In this document: in pieces, positions 24,094-30,468 of the stretch
How the letters are laid out: the number at the start of each line of letters is the position of its first letter
How positions within the stretch are numbered: the first letter of the stretch is position 1
Origin: a virus
Direction: 5' to 3' (one strand)
DNA length: 35,422 bases
IMG/VR virus record: IMGVR_UViG_3300042988_000324
Location: 1-35,422 of that record
Translations under genes and position numbers: made by a program
Notes under the pieces: generated by a model
The model's database searches: none
What the model saw: the letters and a program-made list of their open reading frames with translations, nothing else
What the model was told of the DNA's origin: nothing

Positions 24094-24588
24094 AAATCAA
24101 AACAAAAGGGGAGTTCATTTGAAAGAGATATTGCAAAATATCTCTCTGAACTCTATAACGAATCATTCCTGCGGAATATCACCGGGAGTGGGGCGTATAT
24201 TGGTGGACGCAATGTTCATCGTAAAGGCACAATGAGTGCTGGTCAGATTCAAAGCACAAAAGGCGACATCACTGCGCCAGATGATTGGACACACTTCAAC
24301 GCAGAAGCTAAGAACTACGCTGATATAGACTTTCACAATCTATATACTGGTAGCAAACAATTAGATGGTTGGCTCGATCAGCTGATGACTGTAGCTGATG
24401 ATGGCGACTTTAATATCTTAATGTTTAAGATTACTCGCAAGGGCAAGTATGTCGCTGTTCAAGAACATGAGGAGTTGTCTCTTGGTAATCACACAGTGTA
24501 CACAAATAAACATGGACGCTGGGTGATTACCGACTTTGATGACTTCTTTGCGCGGAACAAAGAACTGATTAAAAAGTTAAGTACTTAA
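24085..24588 (+). CDS. PD-(D/E)XK nuclease, probable Holliday junction resolvase
   Basis: 167 aa. The layout matches archaeal Hjc-type resolvases. A basic start with KGSSFERDIAKYLSEL (residues 9-24) supplies the conserved Glu. A Gly/Ser loop follows (RNITGSGAYIGG), then the catalytic pair GDIT ... FNAEAKNY (Asp, then Glu-x-Lys) at about residues 60-78. T4 resolves branched DNA with an unrelated enzyme (endonuclease VII, gene 49); here the place after gp46 suggests the same job, clearing junctions before packaging. Function is inferred from motif and context; a repair or restriction nuclease is possible. Its stop overlaps the stop of the opposite-strand gene by 3 nt. Translation is probably controlled by the hairpin at 24064-24093. 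Confidence 0.72.
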   Translation: MASKSKQKGSSFERDIAKYLSELYNESFLRNITGSGAYIGGRNVHRKGTMSAGQIQSTKGDITAPDDWTHFNAEAKNYADIDFHNLYTGSKQLDGWLDQLMTVADDGDFNILMFKITRKGKYVAVQEHEELSLGNHTVYTNKHGRWVITDFDDFFARNKELIKKLST

Positions 24589-25715
24589 TCAGATTCAACA
24601 ATCTCAATCTCGAATCCAGTAGCAGCTTTGATATACGCGCTTGCTGCTACAGTATCAACCACATCTTCACATGACCAACCGTCATGCTCTAAGAAGTGAC
24701 CATTATCGTAGCTGTCCAAGTAATCAGAGACCGCGTTCAGCACCGTGCGCTCGATATCAAAGTAAACGCCCCACTTCTGTCTGCTACTGATTGGTAATAC
24801 CCGCTCAATACCATTCTTATCTTCAATAGTGCGTTTACCAATAGTCGGTCTGATTGCTTCCCAACAGTCTTTAATCTCTTCGCGCACACCTTTGACAAAG
24901 AAGTGCTCTCTGAACTCAGTGACCGCTTTGACACTTCCCAGTAGATTGAAGATAGCAAATCGCTCATTAGTACCACACCGTGCGCCACAAAAGAGAGCCA
25001 AGATTGCTCGTTTGACTGACTCTTCATCAACTCCCAAATCAATAGCCATTGATTCACGCACCGCGTCACGACACTCGATATAACCATAGATGTACTCGGG
25101 ATACGTTTCCATTCCTAAATTCTTAGCGTGACCTGCAATCAATGTCGGTGCACAGCAAACAATGTCATAGTGGTACTTCAAACCAGCATCTTCGAGTAGT
25201 TTAGTCTTGTACTCGCGCTTGATGTTCTGGATAGGGTGCCAGAGACGGCTGGACTTGTCATTGTAGATAAAGTTCAATGACGTGAGTTCTTCACCGTGTG
25301 TCGCGTGGTAGGCTTCTGAGACAGTCTCATGCGATAGTTTATGTTCATATTCGAGCGCCTGTTCAGAAGTAGTATCGATCCATACTTTACCTTCAAGATG
25401 GTCGTGGTATGTATAGTCGTTGTTCGGTGTATTGATCTGATAACGGAGGAAGTCTAAACCAGGTTTGTTTAGTTTGTATCGCTTTACAACACCATCGTGC
25501 ATTGAATATGGTTCAGCCGATCCAATCAACAGTAACCAACGAAGATAGCGACCCAAGTCACTATTGTGTAACCCAAGGTGCTTGTCTAACATAGTTCGGC
25601 TACATGGTACCCACTTTGCTTCACGCAGCATGGCTTTGGCGAAACCATGAGCGCGGCGGATTCTGGCAACTACTCGTTTGTCTTTGAAATTTGGAATATA
25701 TTGTTTTTTTGTCAT
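24585..25715 (-). CDS. Unassigned protein with polymerase-like palm motifs
   Basis: 376 aa, not recognised with certainty. The N-terminal ~90 residues look like a winged-helix DNA-binding part (RTMLDKHLGLHNSDLGRYLR). Three segments resemble motifs A, B and C of the family A DNA polymerase/single-subunit RNA polymerase fold. A: YHYDIVCCAPTLIAG (D184), preceded by SRLWHPIQNIKREY. B: VKRAILALFCGAR (K235, G244), with the same Lys-to-Gly spacing as T7 RNA polymerase around K631-Y639-G640, but Cys at the Tyr position. C: FLEHDGW (H344, D345). The protein is far shorter than known members and lacks an exonuclease domain. It is convergent with the resolvase-like gene (stops overlap) and stands alone on the minus strand. 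It may be a polymerase, a primase-like enzyme or a degenerate relative; existence as a gene is confident, function is inference. Confidence 0.75.
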   Translation of the reverse strand: MTKKQYIPNFKDKRVVARIRRAHGFAKAMLREAKWVPCSRTMLDKHLGLHNSDLGRYLRWLLLIGSAEPYSMHDGVVKRYKLNKPGLDFLRYQINTPNNDYTYHDHLEGKVWIDTTSEQALEYEHKLSHETVSEAYHATHGEELTSLNFIYNDKSSRLWHPIQNIKREYKTKLLEDAGLKYHYDIVCCAPTLIAGHAKNLGMETYPEYIYGYIECRDAVRESMAIDLGVDEESVKRAILALFCGARCGTNERFAIFNLLGSVKAVTEFREHFFVKGVREEIKDCWEAIRPTIGKRTIEDKNGIERVLPISSRQKWGVYFDIERTVLNAVSDYLDSYDNGHFLEHDGWSCEDVVDTVAASAYIKAATGFEIEIVESD

Positions 25716-26120: not shown

Positions 26121-26139
26121 ACACACGTGCGTAGCACCA
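26121..26139. repeat. Direct repeat B, copy 1
   Basis: ACACACGTGCGTAGCACCA, identical to the copy at 26165-26183. Each copy contains a small GTGC-GTA-GCAC hairpin and a CACGTG palindrome. Confidence 0.8.
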
Positions 26140-26164: not shown

Positions 26165-26183
26165 ACACACGTGCGTAGCACCA
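26165..26183. repeat. Direct repeat B, copy 2
   Basis: Perfect 19-nt copy, starting 44 nt after copy 1, about 20 nt from the terminator at 26206. Confidence 0.8.
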
Positions 26184-26205
26184 TGTACTCCATGTATAGA
26201 CCAAC

Positions 26206-26225
26206 AAAAAGCACCCGAAGGTGCT
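26206..26225 (-). terminator. Rho-independent terminator (UUCG loop)
   Basis: On the minus strand AGCACC-TTCG-GGTGCT forms a 6-bp GC-rich stem with the stable UUCG tetraloop, running into TTTTT. It lies 19 nt after the stop of the 70-codon ORF and ends the tail chaperone/hub operon. Confidence 0.85.
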
Positions 26226-26244: not shown

Positions 26245-26457
26245 TCAGAAGAATGGCAAGCCCGACTTCTTAGTAGTCTCTAAGTTGTCATCGATAAGGG
26301 CGTTGATGTTATCAATCTCACTTGAACTCATGTTCAGTGCATCCGTGTAACTTAAACCACCACGCATGTACCAACTTATCTTTGCTGCGTTAGCTCTTAC
26401 TATGCCTTGCTGAGCGACATGCCATTCAAGAAACTTCTCTATCTCTTCATCGCTCAT
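26245..26457 (-). CDS. Small tail protein ORF, C-terminal part of a -1 frameshift fusion
   Basis: 70 codons from an ATG at 26457, read in the -1 frame of the preceding gene. The sequence SWYMRGGLSYTDALNMS then ETTKKSGLPFF resembles small conserved ORFs found beside baseplate hub/tail chaperone genes in T4-type phages. No SD precedes the ATG, and the ATG lies in the loop of the stem at 26431-26469. Translation therefore more likely comes by frameshifting from the upstream gene than by a fresh start. The frame is open from the slippery site through this ATG, adding RLRLLY before it. In other phages the frameshifted chaperone form binds the tape measure protein and tube subunits. Whether an independent 70-aa protein also exists is unknown. 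Confidence 0.75.
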   Translation of the reverse strand: MSDEEIEKFLEWHVAQQGIVRANAAKISWYMRGGLSYTDALNMSSSEIDNINALIDDNLETTKKSGLPFF

Positions 26458-26481
26458 ATAGAGAAGTCTTAGGCGAAAAAA
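26431..26481 (-). promoter_or_regulatory. Programmed -1 ribosomal frameshift signal
   Basis: Slippery heptamer T TTT TTC (minus 26481-26475) lies in frame (AGT TTT TTC GCC TAA). A -1 slip bypasses the TAA at 26471-26469 and enters the 70-codon frame, giving a fusion of about 351 aa. Seven nt downstream, ACTTCTCTAT (26467-26458) pairs perfectly with ATAGAGAAGT (26442-26433) around a 15-nt loop. Two more pairs extend the stem to 26469/26431. Heptamer, spacer, stem and frame all fit. Confidence 0.85.
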
Positions 26482-27299
26482 CTTGTGAAGTTCAGGATCA
26501 GTTGTTGCTCATACTCATGGTGACAGTGGATACATTCAATCTTAATAGGAGGTGTGTCGTTAGCTGTTTTGAGCTTGGCACTGAACTCTTTAATCTTGGT
26601 GTTCGTCTTTGTGTCACATTCGGCTAAGAACTCGCGGATGAATACTGGATCAGTGACGACTGTTTCTGGTGTAGCGATACTCTCAATGGTCTCGGCTATA
26701 ACGTCTAGGAGCATCGAATTGAGTTGGGACACACATTCCTTCATAAGTTGCTGTTTATCGTCTCCTTCGGGCGCACCATCAACTTGGGCTAGCATTCGTT
26801 GAACTTCGAACTGCTTCATTGCGTTAGCGTTGCTTTGGGCAAACGTGAGTGGACGGAATTGGAATACTAATTCATCAAGATTGAGTGGTGTAGTGTAGTC
26901 TACGTCACGCTTGGTAACCAGTAGACGCATAAGGTCGATGTCATACGTAGCATCTTCTTTACAAGATGGGCATGTTGATGCAATTTCAATCTTACCATCT
27001 ACGGAAGCTGCTCTGATCGCAATAATGATAGCTTCTAAGTCGATATCATTGAGCTTCCACGGGTCTTTGATAGCTGGGATACAGCTTTTGATTACGTCTA
27101 CTACGGCGGCGCCGTTAAATAGGGCGTCTGGTGTTCTGATAGTCAATTCGTCTATTGAAGTCATTGGATAGACTGGTAGTTCACCGTTTGGTGGTGTATC
27201 TACTACGCCGTCAGCATAGTACTTCGAACCTGATGGTAGCTTGAAGTAGATAGCAGGGCGTCTGAAATACGCTTTAAGTGGGTTATTGTCGTTACTCAT
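26469..27299 (-). CDS. Tail assembly chaperone / baseplate hub protein (gp26/gp51-type)
   Basis: 276 aa. After the N-terminal YFKLPSGSKYYADG comes a helical domain (DELTIRTPDALFNGAAVVDV, DIDLEAIIIAIRAASVDG). Two Cys pairs, CPSC (110-113) and CIHC (256-259), probably make one zinc site. The layout resembles the T4 gp26-type baseplate family (Pfam T4_baseplate), whose T4 members are needed for hub assembly. The ending in a frameshift signal, with a small downstream frame and the tape-measure gene next door (divergent), points to a tail assembly chaperone like lambda gpG/gpGT. SD AAGGAG lies 9 nt before the ATG at 27299; late octamer GCTAAATA at 27361-27354. Function is partly inferred. Confidence 0.75.
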   Translation of the reverse strand: MSNDNNPLKAYFRRPAIYFKLPSGSKYYADGVVDTPPNGELPVYPMTSIDELTIRTPDALFNGAAVVDVIKSCIPAIKDPWKLNDIDLEAIIIAIRAASVDGKIEIASTCPSCKEDATYDIDLMRLLVTKRDVDYTTPLNLDELVFQFRPLTFAQSNANAMKQFEVQRMLAQVDGAPEGDDKQQLMKECVSQLNSMLLDVIAETIESIATPETVVTDPVFIREFLAECDTKTNTKIKEFSAKLKTANDTPPIKIECIHCHHEYEQQLILNFTSFFA

Positions 27300-27375: not shown

Positions 27376-30300
27376 ATGGACAACATTAGCGAAGCAGAGT
27401 TTAGACAATTAGTTGAACAGTTCAAGATATTTAACGATACCATGAGATCTGGTGGCGCGTTCAATTCTGGGACAGAGAAGGTTGTCGCTGCTCTTGGAGT
27501 TCTGGGCACTAAACTGGACAAATCGGAACGGAGTGCCAAGAAACAAGACAAATCGCTGGACGACTTTAACGCTGCGATTGAAAAGTCGATGAAGCGCCAG
27601 GAGGAGAGCACCAAGTCCACCAAGGCAGCTACTGATGCGACTGAAGCTGATACAAAGTCTACCAAGGCCCATACAACGGCCATGGACGAATACCAGAAGC
27701 GTGAGCAGGCGTATCACGACTTACGCAAGAAGATTACTGGGCAGGACGAGGAATACTACAAAGCCAATAAAGAGCGCTTAGAAAACACTCGCAACCTATC
27801 AAAAGCGATGCGTGATCATCAGGCGGCTTCTAAGTCTAGTAGCGCTGAGTGGTTTGATTCGATGAAGCAGCTGAGTGGCAACGGGTCGTTCCTAAAGGAC
27901 AAACTCTACGACTTAGCTGGTAACTCAAACGCAGCGCAGTTAACGCTACGTGGTCTCGGCGCTGCGGCTGAGGGTGTTACAAAGTCTCTGACTCAATACA
28001 GCGCTGCCATCTACAAAGGTGAACGCGGTGCTGTAGCATCAGCGAACGCGATTGAATCCCTGGCTAAGCCGGTGTTGGAATTTGGCGACATGATCGGTAA
28101 CATCATCACGTTTGCGTCGATGTTTGTTCCAGGAGGCATCTTAGTCAAAGCTGGTGTCGCATTAGCTGGTATGCTTATCAAAGGCGCTAGTGCTGCTGGT
28201 GAACTGGCGCTGAAGTTTAACAAACTTGCGGCTGAACAATCTGATAAACTATTTAAAACATTCAATGACTTGAGTAAGGCTGGTGTATCTGGTGTTCGTG
28301 GTATGACCGACGTGTTCGAGGGTGTGCAAACTCTCGGCATGACAATGGATCAGATCGATGAGTATAACAAGTTACTATCGACAAACGCCAAGACGTTGAA
28401 GATGTTTGGTGCGACTGCCGCTCAAGGTAGTAAGGCATTTGCTGAAGTTGCTGGTGGATTATACAAGAGTGATGTTGGTAGAAGTCTTGAGATGCTTGGT
28501 GTTACGGCTGAAGAGCAACGTGACAGTGCACTTGAGTACATGAGTCTACAAGCGCGTACAGGTCAGCTTCAATTAAACAACACAAAGAAGCTCATGGAAG
28601 GCAGCGCTGAGTTCGTCAAAGAATTAGACTTAGCTGCTCAGATGACTGGCACAACTCGCAAAGAGCAAATGGAAGCTCGTGAGATAGCTATGGCAGATGA
28701 TCGTCATCGCGCCGCGCTCATTGAAGCTCGTAACAACAACGATGAAAAAGAAATTAAGCGTCTAGAGAAGGCACAAAAGTTAGCTGGTATGTTGAAGGCA
28801 TCTGGCGACGAAGAAGGCGCAGCTGGTGTTCTTCAATACGCTGCGGGTGGCGCATATACAAAACAATCACAAGCGGCGATGCGCCAGTATGACCTCGACA
28901 ACACGCTCAGTAAAGAATCAATGGGTGAGATGTTCGATGCTGCTGCGAATGCAACACGTGATAATCAAAAAACATTTGCGGGTCTAAACAAGTATATTGG
29001 TAAGATCGACTCGATGCAAACTAGCATTGCTAAAGCAGATGACTTCCAACTAAGACAAAAGGCATTAGCAGAAGGCGCCTCTAAAGCTGGCTTTACTGGT
29101 AAAAACGCAATAGAAGACTTCCTAAAGACCGAGCAAGGTCAGAAGATGTACAGTGGTGACAAAGACACTGGTTTGATGGTAGATGCCAATCGCGCACAGC
29201 AGGCAGCAGGTCAAAAGATGGACGCTGTTGTAAAGACATTCAACGGCGCTGCGCAACTACACGAGAAGGCGGCAAAAGCATTTACTAACGCTGTTGATAC
29301 ATTCTCTAAAGTTGTTGGTGCAAAAGGCGTTACTGGCGGTGATATTAAAGTTGATGGTGTAAACAACGAATCAACTAAGTCAGCTGATGATATGTCATCT
29401 ATGGCCGAATTGAGTCCTGAAGATCGTCAATCTGCATACGCGCAACGCAGAAAAGAATTAGAGAATGCGCCGTTAATGGCCAGATGGTATGGTATAGGCG
29501 CTGACAAATATCTAAAAGAGAAAAACGAAAAAGAAAAAGCTGCGTCTAAAGAAGCGGCATTGACCAATGTATCTTCCTCATGGAACGAAGAAGCGTTTAA
29601 AAAGAAAGATGCAACGCAACACGCGGCGTACACCGCTAGAAAAGAAGCGCTAATCAAAGAGTCGCATGCCAAAATCAATGATGATAAATCTCTAAGCAAA
29701 GAACAAAAAGAAATTAAACTGAAGTCGGCATCGGCAAGCGCGACTAAAGCTGCTCAACAAGAGTTCGCATCTGTTGCTATCGAAGCTGGTGCTGCATCAG
29801 CTATCAGTAGTAAGACTGCTGACAGAGAAGTAATCACTCCAGAAAAAGTTTTGGACTTTGGTGACAAGAGCGGTGATAGAGAACACTTTGCTAAACTGGA
29901 TCTAGGATTGCGTGAGCGCGTGCTAGTAGCAGCAAATGATTACTTTAAAAAGACCAATAAGAAATTAAAAGTCAATAGCGCGGTGCGTGATTCTGAAGAC
30001 CAACAGCGTCTGTGGGATGAAACTGTTAAAGCTGGCCGTGAGGGCATAGGTCCAACTGGTATGTTGGTGGCTAAGCCAGGGACCAGTAAACATGAATTGG
30101 GTAACGCAGTAGACATTCAGCAAGGCAAGGGCGATAGTGATGCGTTGACTGCTCTTAAAGCAGCTGGTCTCAAGCAGCCATTCCCTGACAAAGACCCAGT
30201 TCACTTTGAACAAGCGCGTACTGGCGGTATCTTCAAAGGTCCTTCTTCTGGCTATCTGGTAGAGATGCACGGTGAAGAAGAGGTTAAACCAGTTAACAGC

Positions 30301-30468
30301 ACTGAAGTAACTAAGTCGCCACTAGGAACTGCCAGCAACGACAATGACAAATCATACGATGCGATGATGACTATGTTTGGTCAGATGATATCTAGATTGG
30401 ATGAAGTAATCAATCTACTTGATGACGGCAACAACTACAACAAAAAACTAGTCAACGCCCTCTCCTAA
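27376..30468 (+). CDS. Tail tape measure protein with M15 peptidase domain
   Basis: 1,030 aa. Residues 1-230 are mostly charged helix/coiled coil. A hydrophobic segment lies at about 236-275 (NIITFASMFVPGGILVKAG), then more long helices to about 640. This suits a tape measure that sets tail length and leaves with the DNA. Residues 837-945 form an M15 (VanY/endolysin-like) zinc peptidase: TSKHELGNAVD gives H906 and D913, DPVHFE gives D940 and H943. The spacings equal those of VanX and T5 endolysin. Such a domain would cut peptide bridges of peptidoglycan during entry. After it comes GGIFKGPSSGYLVEMHGEEE, a C-terminal motif common in tape measure proteins. In T4 terms it would replace gp29 and the gp5 lysozyme. 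Role confident from architecture; substrate inferred. Confidence 0.82.
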   Translation: MDNISEAEFRQLVEQFKIFNDTMRSGGAFNSGTEKVVAALGVLGTKLDKSERSAKKQDKSLDDFNAAIEKSMKRQEESTKSTKAATDATEADTKSTKAHTTAMDEYQKREQAYHDLRKKITGQDEEYYKANKERLENTRNLSKAMRDHQAASKSSSAEWFDSMKQLSGNGSFLKDKLYDLAGNSNAAQLTLRGLGAAAEGVTKSLTQYSAAIYKGERGAVASANAIESLAKPVLEFGDMIGNIITFASMFVPGGILVKAGVALAGMLIKGASAAGELALKFNKLAAEQSDKLFKTFNDLSKAGVSGVRGMTDVFEGVQTLGMTMDQIDEYNKLLSTNAKTLKMFGATAAQGSKAFAEVAGGLYKSDVGRSLEMLGVTAEEQRDSALEYMSLQARTGQLQLNNTKKLMEGSAEFVKELDLAAQMTGTTRKEQMEAREIAMADDRHRAALIEARNNNDEKEIKRLEKAQKLAGMLKASGDEEGAAGVLQYAAGGAYTKQSQAAMRQYDLDNTLSKESMGEMFDAAANATRDNQKTFAGLNKYIGKIDSMQTSIAKADDFQLRQKALAEGASKAGFTGKNAIEDFLKTEQGQKMYSGDKDTGLMVDANRAQQAAGQKMDAVVKTFNGAAQLHEKAAKAFTNAVDTFSKVVGAKGVTGGDIKVDGVNNESTKSADDMSSMAELSPEDRQSAYAQRRKELENAPLMARWYGIGADKYLKEKNEKEKAASKEAALTNVSSSWNEEAFKKKDATQHAAYTARKEALIKESHAKINDDKSLSKEQKEIKLKSASASATKAAQQEFASVAIEAGAASAISSKTADREVITPEKVLDFGDKSGDREHFAKLDLGLRERVLVAANDYFKKTNKKLKVNSAVRDSEDQQRLWDETVKAGREGIGPTGMLVAKPGTSKHELGNAVDIQQGKGDSDALTALKAAGLKQPFPDKDPVHFEQARTGGIFKGPSSGYLVEMHGEEEVKPVNSTEVTKSPLGTASNDNDKSYDAMMTMFGQMISRLDEVINLLDDGNNYNKKLVNALS

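Follow-up and report, generated by a model that had tools for sequence, protein, structure and literature searches.

Phage lambda makes two forms of its G/GT chaperone from a single gene that lies near the tape measure gene, a short one and a long one reached by -1 frameshifting, and the review describing this calls the frameshift device widely conserved except in T4 (PMC5009743). The lambda system has many counterparts in siphophages and myophages. Two-form tail assembly chaperones of T4-like phages are the subject of Vladimirov, Gautam and Davidson (2022, Virology 566:9-15). Later papers cite this work for the use of one short and one long chaperone gene, instead of frameshifting, in some T4-like phages (PMC10885494, 2024) and credit it with the poly-T slip signals of T4-like chaperone genes (PMC12846349, 2025). 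In T4, gp51 is reported to be needed for assembly yet missing from the particle, and both it and gp26 are classed as chaperones of hub assembly (PMC3004832). A search of the open-licence literature by title and abstract found no report of a frameshift in a jumbo-phage gp26-type gene.

Here, we analyzed a virus record of 35,422 bases (the window), in which a gp26-type gene ends at a slippery heptamer, T TTT TTC, that leads into an open -1 frame. Comparative sequence analysis suggests, with a probability that we place at roughly 0.86, that this gene encodes a two-form T4-superfamily tail assembly chaperone made by -1 slipping. The locus resembles lambda G/GT in having a short form and a -1 long form from one gene near a candidate tape measure gene, as read here from the genes alone. 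It differs in that its heptamer is unrelated to that of lambda (G GGA AAG), its protein belongs to PF12322 and not to a lambda-type family, and its candidate tape measure gene lies divergently instead of downstream. It has in common with the phages of Vladimirov et al. the two chaperone forms, here as predicted products. The chaperone locus of Vandenendeviridae and Andersonviridae, as described in PMC12846349, likewise has a conserved -1 frameshift, at GTTTTT before the open reading frame (ORF) of a C-terminal domain (C-domain), although these are other families and the chaperone gene there lies upstream of the tape measure gene.

The junction at the end of the gp26-type gene

The gp26-type gene occupies 26469..27299 on the minus strand and has a 0-frame product of 276 aa, the predicted short isoform. 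This product matched Pfam PF12322 (T4_baseplate; E 3e-21, 76.5 bits, cut-off 24.5) and PHROG 150 (baseplate hub; E 2e-20). The minus-strand junction reads CTG AAC TTC ACA AGT TTT TTC GCC TAA GACTTCTCTAT ATGAGCGATGAAGAG ATAGAGAAGT, and locus L001 of our collection is identical. The slippery heptamer (26481-26475) is phased T/TTT/TTC for a -1 slip, 10 nt before TAA. It is followed by a 7-nt spacer, GCCTAAG (26474-26468), that includes the 0-frame stop TAA (26471-26469), and then by a perfect 10-bp stem whose 5' arm, ACTTCTCTAT (26467-26458), pairs with the 3' arm, ATAGAGAAGT (26442-26433). RNAfold draws 12 pairs, one of them G.U (L001).

From the heptamer, the -1 frame encodes a C-domain of 78 aa, FFRLRLLYMSDEE...TTKKSGLPFF, and then a stop (26245..26481, minus strand). 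In L001 it stays open for 37 nt ahead of the 0-frame stop and for 224 nt beyond it, the last coding base being 26248 and the stop 26247-26245. Because the -1 frame is open through the heptamer to this stop, a single slip would yield a 351-aa protein; on genomic evidence, the predicted products are thus a short one of 276 aa and a long one of 351 aa. A gene finder would call a 70-aa ORF here (26245..26457, minus strand), which begins at an ATG in the loop of the stem. Reading by eye, we saw no purine-rich Shine-Dalgarno sequence ahead of this ATG at 26457. A previous sequence-only reading had described the heptamer and its phase, the 7-nt spacer, the 10-bp stem (12 pairs with a G.U) and an exactly -1 open frame lacking its own Shine-Dalgarno sequence, and had proposed forms of 276 and about 351 aa. 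Each of these elements was confirmed in the sequence, as were the predicted lengths.

We selected 19 main genes from the window's ORF lists and found 19 in-phase heptamers in their 8866 codons. Only the heptamer of the gp26-type gene lay within 45 nt of its stop, and only there did the -1 frame run past the stop. In a plain base shuffle, 78 codons stay open with a probability of 0.008. The surrounding genes encode a late sigma factor, gp46/47-like recombination proteins, a baseplate wedge, a portal and a head protease, and they fit a T4-superfamily myophage. The nearest annotated relatives (62 records, 25-33% identical) are jumbo phages such as PA5oct, Atu_ph07, 121Q, RaK2 and GAP32.

By eye, we noted a 19-base direct repeat, ACACACGTGCGTAGCACCA, in noncoding sequence downstream of the gp26-type gene, at 26121-26139 and 26165-26183. 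Past the stop of the -1 frame, a minus-strand hairpin, AGCACC-TTCG-GGTGCT followed by TTTTGTTG (26202-26225), is likely the terminator of the gp26-type transcript; the scan listed this hairpin on the plus strand only. A 376-aa ORF at 24585-25715 on the minus strand had no Pfam or PHROG match.

Relationship to T4 gp26 and gp51

PF12322 matches T4 gp26 over residues 1-206 of 208 and gp51 over residues 1-201 of 249, with gp51 alone extending beyond the family. Compared as family alignments, gp26 and gp51 matched each other with an hhalign probability of 99.3. The -1 C-domains were compared with gp51 in the same way, using shuffled decoys because hhalign E-values hold for one comparison. The C-domain of cyanophage and phiAS5-type relatives aligned with gp51 at about residues 199-252 (probability 96.5, score 58.3, best of 60 decoys 21.7), and that of the window group gave a moderate match (probability 59.8, score 31.4, best of 60 decoys 18.9). 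The corresponding hhalign comparison against gp26 found nothing (0.1). At full length, the family alignment of the window group matched gp26 at 97.2 and gp51 weakly, at 15.5. Comparisons with single T4 sequences were uninformative (gp51 probability 6.7; C-domain misplaced at 2.8), and the link to T4 comes from the family alignments, as single-sequence comparisons gave no such result. Judged by these alignments, the -1 domain and the C-terminal extension of gp51 are homologous, and T4 gp26 and gp51 are paralogues, so that T4 has a separate gene for each of the two forms.

The window protein and the two T4 proteins thus belong to one family, PF12322, and the -1 C-domain corresponds to the gp51 extension. 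T4 and five relatives differ in carrying separate gp26 and gp51 genes, and T TTT TTY was absent from the end of gp26 in all six. The end of RB43 gp26 has other in-phase heptamers, and the -1 frame of these either ends immediately or falls within gp51. In a phylogenetic tree, twelve T4-type gp26 and gp51 sequences fell on one side of a branch (support 99/97), as one duplication would give if the tree is taken at face value. The gp51 sequences formed one group and those of gp26 did not (2 changes), the gp26 of Aeromonas 31 and that of RB43 being long branches; placement nearest the phiAS5 types was weak (73/89). We infer the order of events, since the tree was midpoint-rooted.

The divergent neighboring gene

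A gene on the plus strand (27376..30468) starts 76 bases from the gp26-type gene and encodes a 1030-aa protein with a C-terminal VanY-type peptidase domain (PF02557, E 2.9e-8) and a hydrophobic, tape-measure-like stretch at about residues 233-285. It had no match to a tape measure family in Pfam or PHROG. In a tblastn search, only its peptidase domain was matched, by 31 Campylobacter phages that each covered about 10% of the query. A phmmer search against the divergent ORFs of the non-redundant loci (at most 70), with a cut-off of E 10, returned 30 sequences, the least significant having an E of 3e-5. The counterpart in RaK2 is annotated with a note of similarity to tape measure protein. Homology thus did not establish a tape measure identity, as the tblastn matches were confined to the peptidase domain and no tape measure family was matched; that the neighbor is a tape measure protein is plausible.

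A long ORF diverged from the gp26-type gene in 105 of 110 loci. Of the other five, Vibrio phage 2.275.O is a same-strand case, L003 and L033, which are one phage, were unclear, and two loci were incomplete. Gene 26 of T4 is also divergent from genes 51-27-28-29. The sequence-only reading had placed a tape measure gene next to the gp26-type gene on the opposite strand and called this unusual: the adjacency and the divergence stand, the orientation is no local oddity, and the gene's identity is plausible.

Predicted structures and the assignment to the baseplate hub

AlphaFold2 modeled the 276-aa protein with a mean pLDDT of 91.0 and the C-domain with 90.4, as four helices. Foldseek returned no PDB match at E 0.001 for the gp26 model. 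A second look with VIA-align gave helical-hairpin matches only (best Z 9.1 over 55 residues), and searching PDB sequences with a profile yielded no hit below E 0.37. The PDB searches therefore revealed no link to a solved chaperone, and with no PDB match at E 0.001, structure offers no independent tie to one. Against a viral library at E 0.001, the gp26 model had 55 matches and the C-domain model had none. Among the matches listed, the gp26 model resembled T4-like gp26 and several uncharacterized jumbo-phage proteins. Proteins of phiRSL1, PaBG, RP12, Motura and Erwinia Special G share its fold among these matches and, going by the models, may be unrecognized tail chaperones.

The alternative that fares best accepts the frameshift and takes the two proteins to be components of the baseplate hub, not chaperones of a tape measure protein. 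The Pfam and PHROG names both say baseplate, the presence of gp26 and gp28 in the hub of T4 is reported to have genetic support (PMC3004832), and the neighbor is a putative tape measure protein with no tape measure family match. We nevertheless regard this reading as unlikely. Short and frameshifted long forms are described as the hallmark of the lambda-type chaperone (PMC5009743), T4 gp51 is reported missing from the virion (PMC3004832), and later papers cite the T4-like chaperones as identified (PMC12846349 and PMC10885494). The earlier proposal that this T4-type protein is the functional counterpart of a tail chaperone is supported by the homology of its C-domain to the gp51 extension and by the short and long chaperone genes cited for T4-like phages (PMC10885494).

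Conservation of the heptamer and the -1 frame

Relatives were gathered by gp26 protein similarity, with search patterns placed outside the junction. Two of the gathering steps retained the top 80, one out of 588 and the other out of 591. Among these best-scoring gp26 relatives, an in-phase heptamer near the stop was found in 211 of 212 loci: 208 had T TTT TTC, two had T TTT TTT (Stenotrophomonas phage CM1 and XacN1), one had A AAT TTT (L045) and one had none (L222). In the first set of 110 loci, the in-phase heptamer near the stop was T TTT TTC in 107, T TTT TTT in two and A AAT TTT in one. T TTT TTC lay exactly 10 nt before the stop in all 84 cyanophage and phiAS5-type loci. It was present in 17 of the 18 loci of the third batch; the exception was L222, whose gp26 match is interrupted and ends early. 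As the 212 loci are redundant, they were reduced to 91 distinct junctions at 85% identity, 88 of which carried T TTT TTC. Among single GenBank records, the site is present in phiAS5, Sf-FS3 and IC12 and absent from Pseudomonas phage Cygsa01.

In the non-redundant first-set loci, T TTT TTC occurred in 67 of 70, compared with about seven expected from the amino acids and each gene's codon usage; the 70 rows share descent, so a simple probability does not apply to this excess. The codon ahead of the heptamer varied among these 67 (AAT, AGT, GAT, CAT, CGT, TAT and ACT), and because it changes, inheritance alone is an unlikely source of the conservation. Other Phe-Phe pairs in the same genes were written T TTT TTC in 1 of 21 cases. 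Selection also appeared to act on the -1 reading: pairwise identity at the first residue after the heptamer was 0.76 in the -1 frame versus 0.19 in the 0 frame. The -1 residue next to the heptamer was R in 61 of 70 loci, with L in the fourth place in 61 and in the fifth in 58, and the position of the 0-frame stop wandered from 10 to 40 nt past the heptamer. Complete -1 extensions measured 60-82 aa in 204 loci, and seven more ended at contig edges. All 211 extensions matched one of two C-domain profiles at E 0.001, most of them having helped to build those profiles. This conservation is the main support for the frameshift signal and argues strongly that the signal is not due to chance. The signal, its phasing, its conservation and the homology of the C-domain to gp51 can be read directly from the alignments, in which the heptamer and the -1 phasing proposed by the sequence-only reading were kept in 211 of the 212 loci.

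The C-domain could instead be made as a free protein, by termination and reinitiation at the loop ATG, with the heptamer unused. In the window this ATG lies 12 nt past the 0-frame stop codon, and an ATG occurs within the first 25 codons of the -1 frame in 44 of 70 loci. Annotators call the C-domain a separate gene in 121Q, GAP32, Sf-FS3 and others, and it is a separate gene in Pseudomonas phage Cygsa01 (L120:1992-2902), with a TAATG stop-start overlap and no canonical heptamer. From this overlap and the missing heptamer, a free C-domain seems enough in Cygsa01, whose arrangement is possibly a third way of making the domain. As a general account, reinitiation is improbable. The conserved FFR.RLL starts at the heptamer, ahead of any such ATG; the first 25 codons of the -1 frame lack ATG, GTG and TTG altogether in 13 of 70 loci, and a start codon accompanied by a Shine-Dalgarno-like stretch occurs in only 6 of 70. 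Reinitiation also leaves the conservation of the heptamer unexplained, and the domain is fused in T4 gp51.

Slipping by the polymerase on the T run, rather than by the ribosome, would give the long form from an edited mRNA. The run has six Ts and is longer in the two relatives with T TTT TTT, but six Ts is short for bacterial transcriptional slippage. Moreover, the seventh-base C was kept in 208 of 212 loci and the T before the Phe codons was also kept, which is what tandem tRNA slippage needs, and we consider polymerase slippage very improbable. A sequencing or assembly error that split one gene, although a single-base mistake could give such a break, has a negligible probability and is already refuted by the relatives: across many different isolates and assemblies, 211 of 212 loci show the identical break at this very heptamer.

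The stem-loop downstream of the heptamer

The stem of the window begins 7 nt after the heptamer and is not outstanding on its own, with a folding z of -1.31 over 63 nt and -2.25 over 50 nt. When the 50 nt past the heptamer were folded in the 70 non-redundant loci, mean z was -0.77, and control stretches taken from these genes gave -0.22 (Wilcoxon p 0.007); z was below -1 in 30 loci and not in the other 40. Across 21 related junctions, the window stem paired 53.3% of cells; shuffles gave 48.2%, and shifting the stem by +1 gave 44%. Among the nearest seven junctions, 75.7% of cells were paired versus 70.3%. Covariation was partial in this nearest clade: 4 of 10 stem pairs showed a two-sided change, a value as high being reached in 9 of 500 shuffles, and RNAalifold kept seven pairs, two of them with a two-sided change. 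In L106, the stem pairs one base out of register by eye.

A universal stem-loop stimulator was rejected, since the excess of structure is slight across the 70 loci and the stem is weak or absent in many. The stem is likely a clade-specific stimulator, judging from these comparisons, and not a defining part of the signal. The sequence-only reading had treated the signal as complete with its stem; the window does have that stem, but the feature does not extend to the relatives at large.

Proposed mechanism and implications

We infer the slipping itself, its efficiency, the role of the stem and the binding partners as follows. Most ribosomes would stop at TAA and release the 276-aa short form. 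A minority would slip back one base on U UUU UUC, on which the same Phe tRNA would be able to re-pair in both ribosomal sites, and would continue into the 351-aa long form with its small helical C-domain. Slipping is probably promoted, in the clade of the window, by the stem 7 nt past the heptamer. If the lambda G/GT analogy applies, the tape measure protein would be coated by numerous short copies and a few long ones, tail-tube subunits would be brought in by the C-domain, and both forms would then leave.

We think it fairly probable that a single frameshifting gene is the common state of the T4-superfamily tail chaperone, in groups ranging from jumbo phages to cyanophages and phiAS5-type Straboviridae, with T4 as the derived exception. 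The essential gp51, of unknown function, would then be the frozen long form, and gp26 the frozen short form, left by duplication and loss of the slip site. As part of the same proposal, the window-group chaperone would be transcribed away from its client, so that no shared messenger could set the ratio of short form to long form to client.

Beyond the known frameshifting of T4-like chaperones, the added value of this work is a broad survey of conservation. Gene finders should merge both frames. In many jumbo and marine phages, the reading as a -1 frameshifted chaperone gives a testable role to a gene annotated as baseplate hub and to the hypothetical small ORF that follows it.
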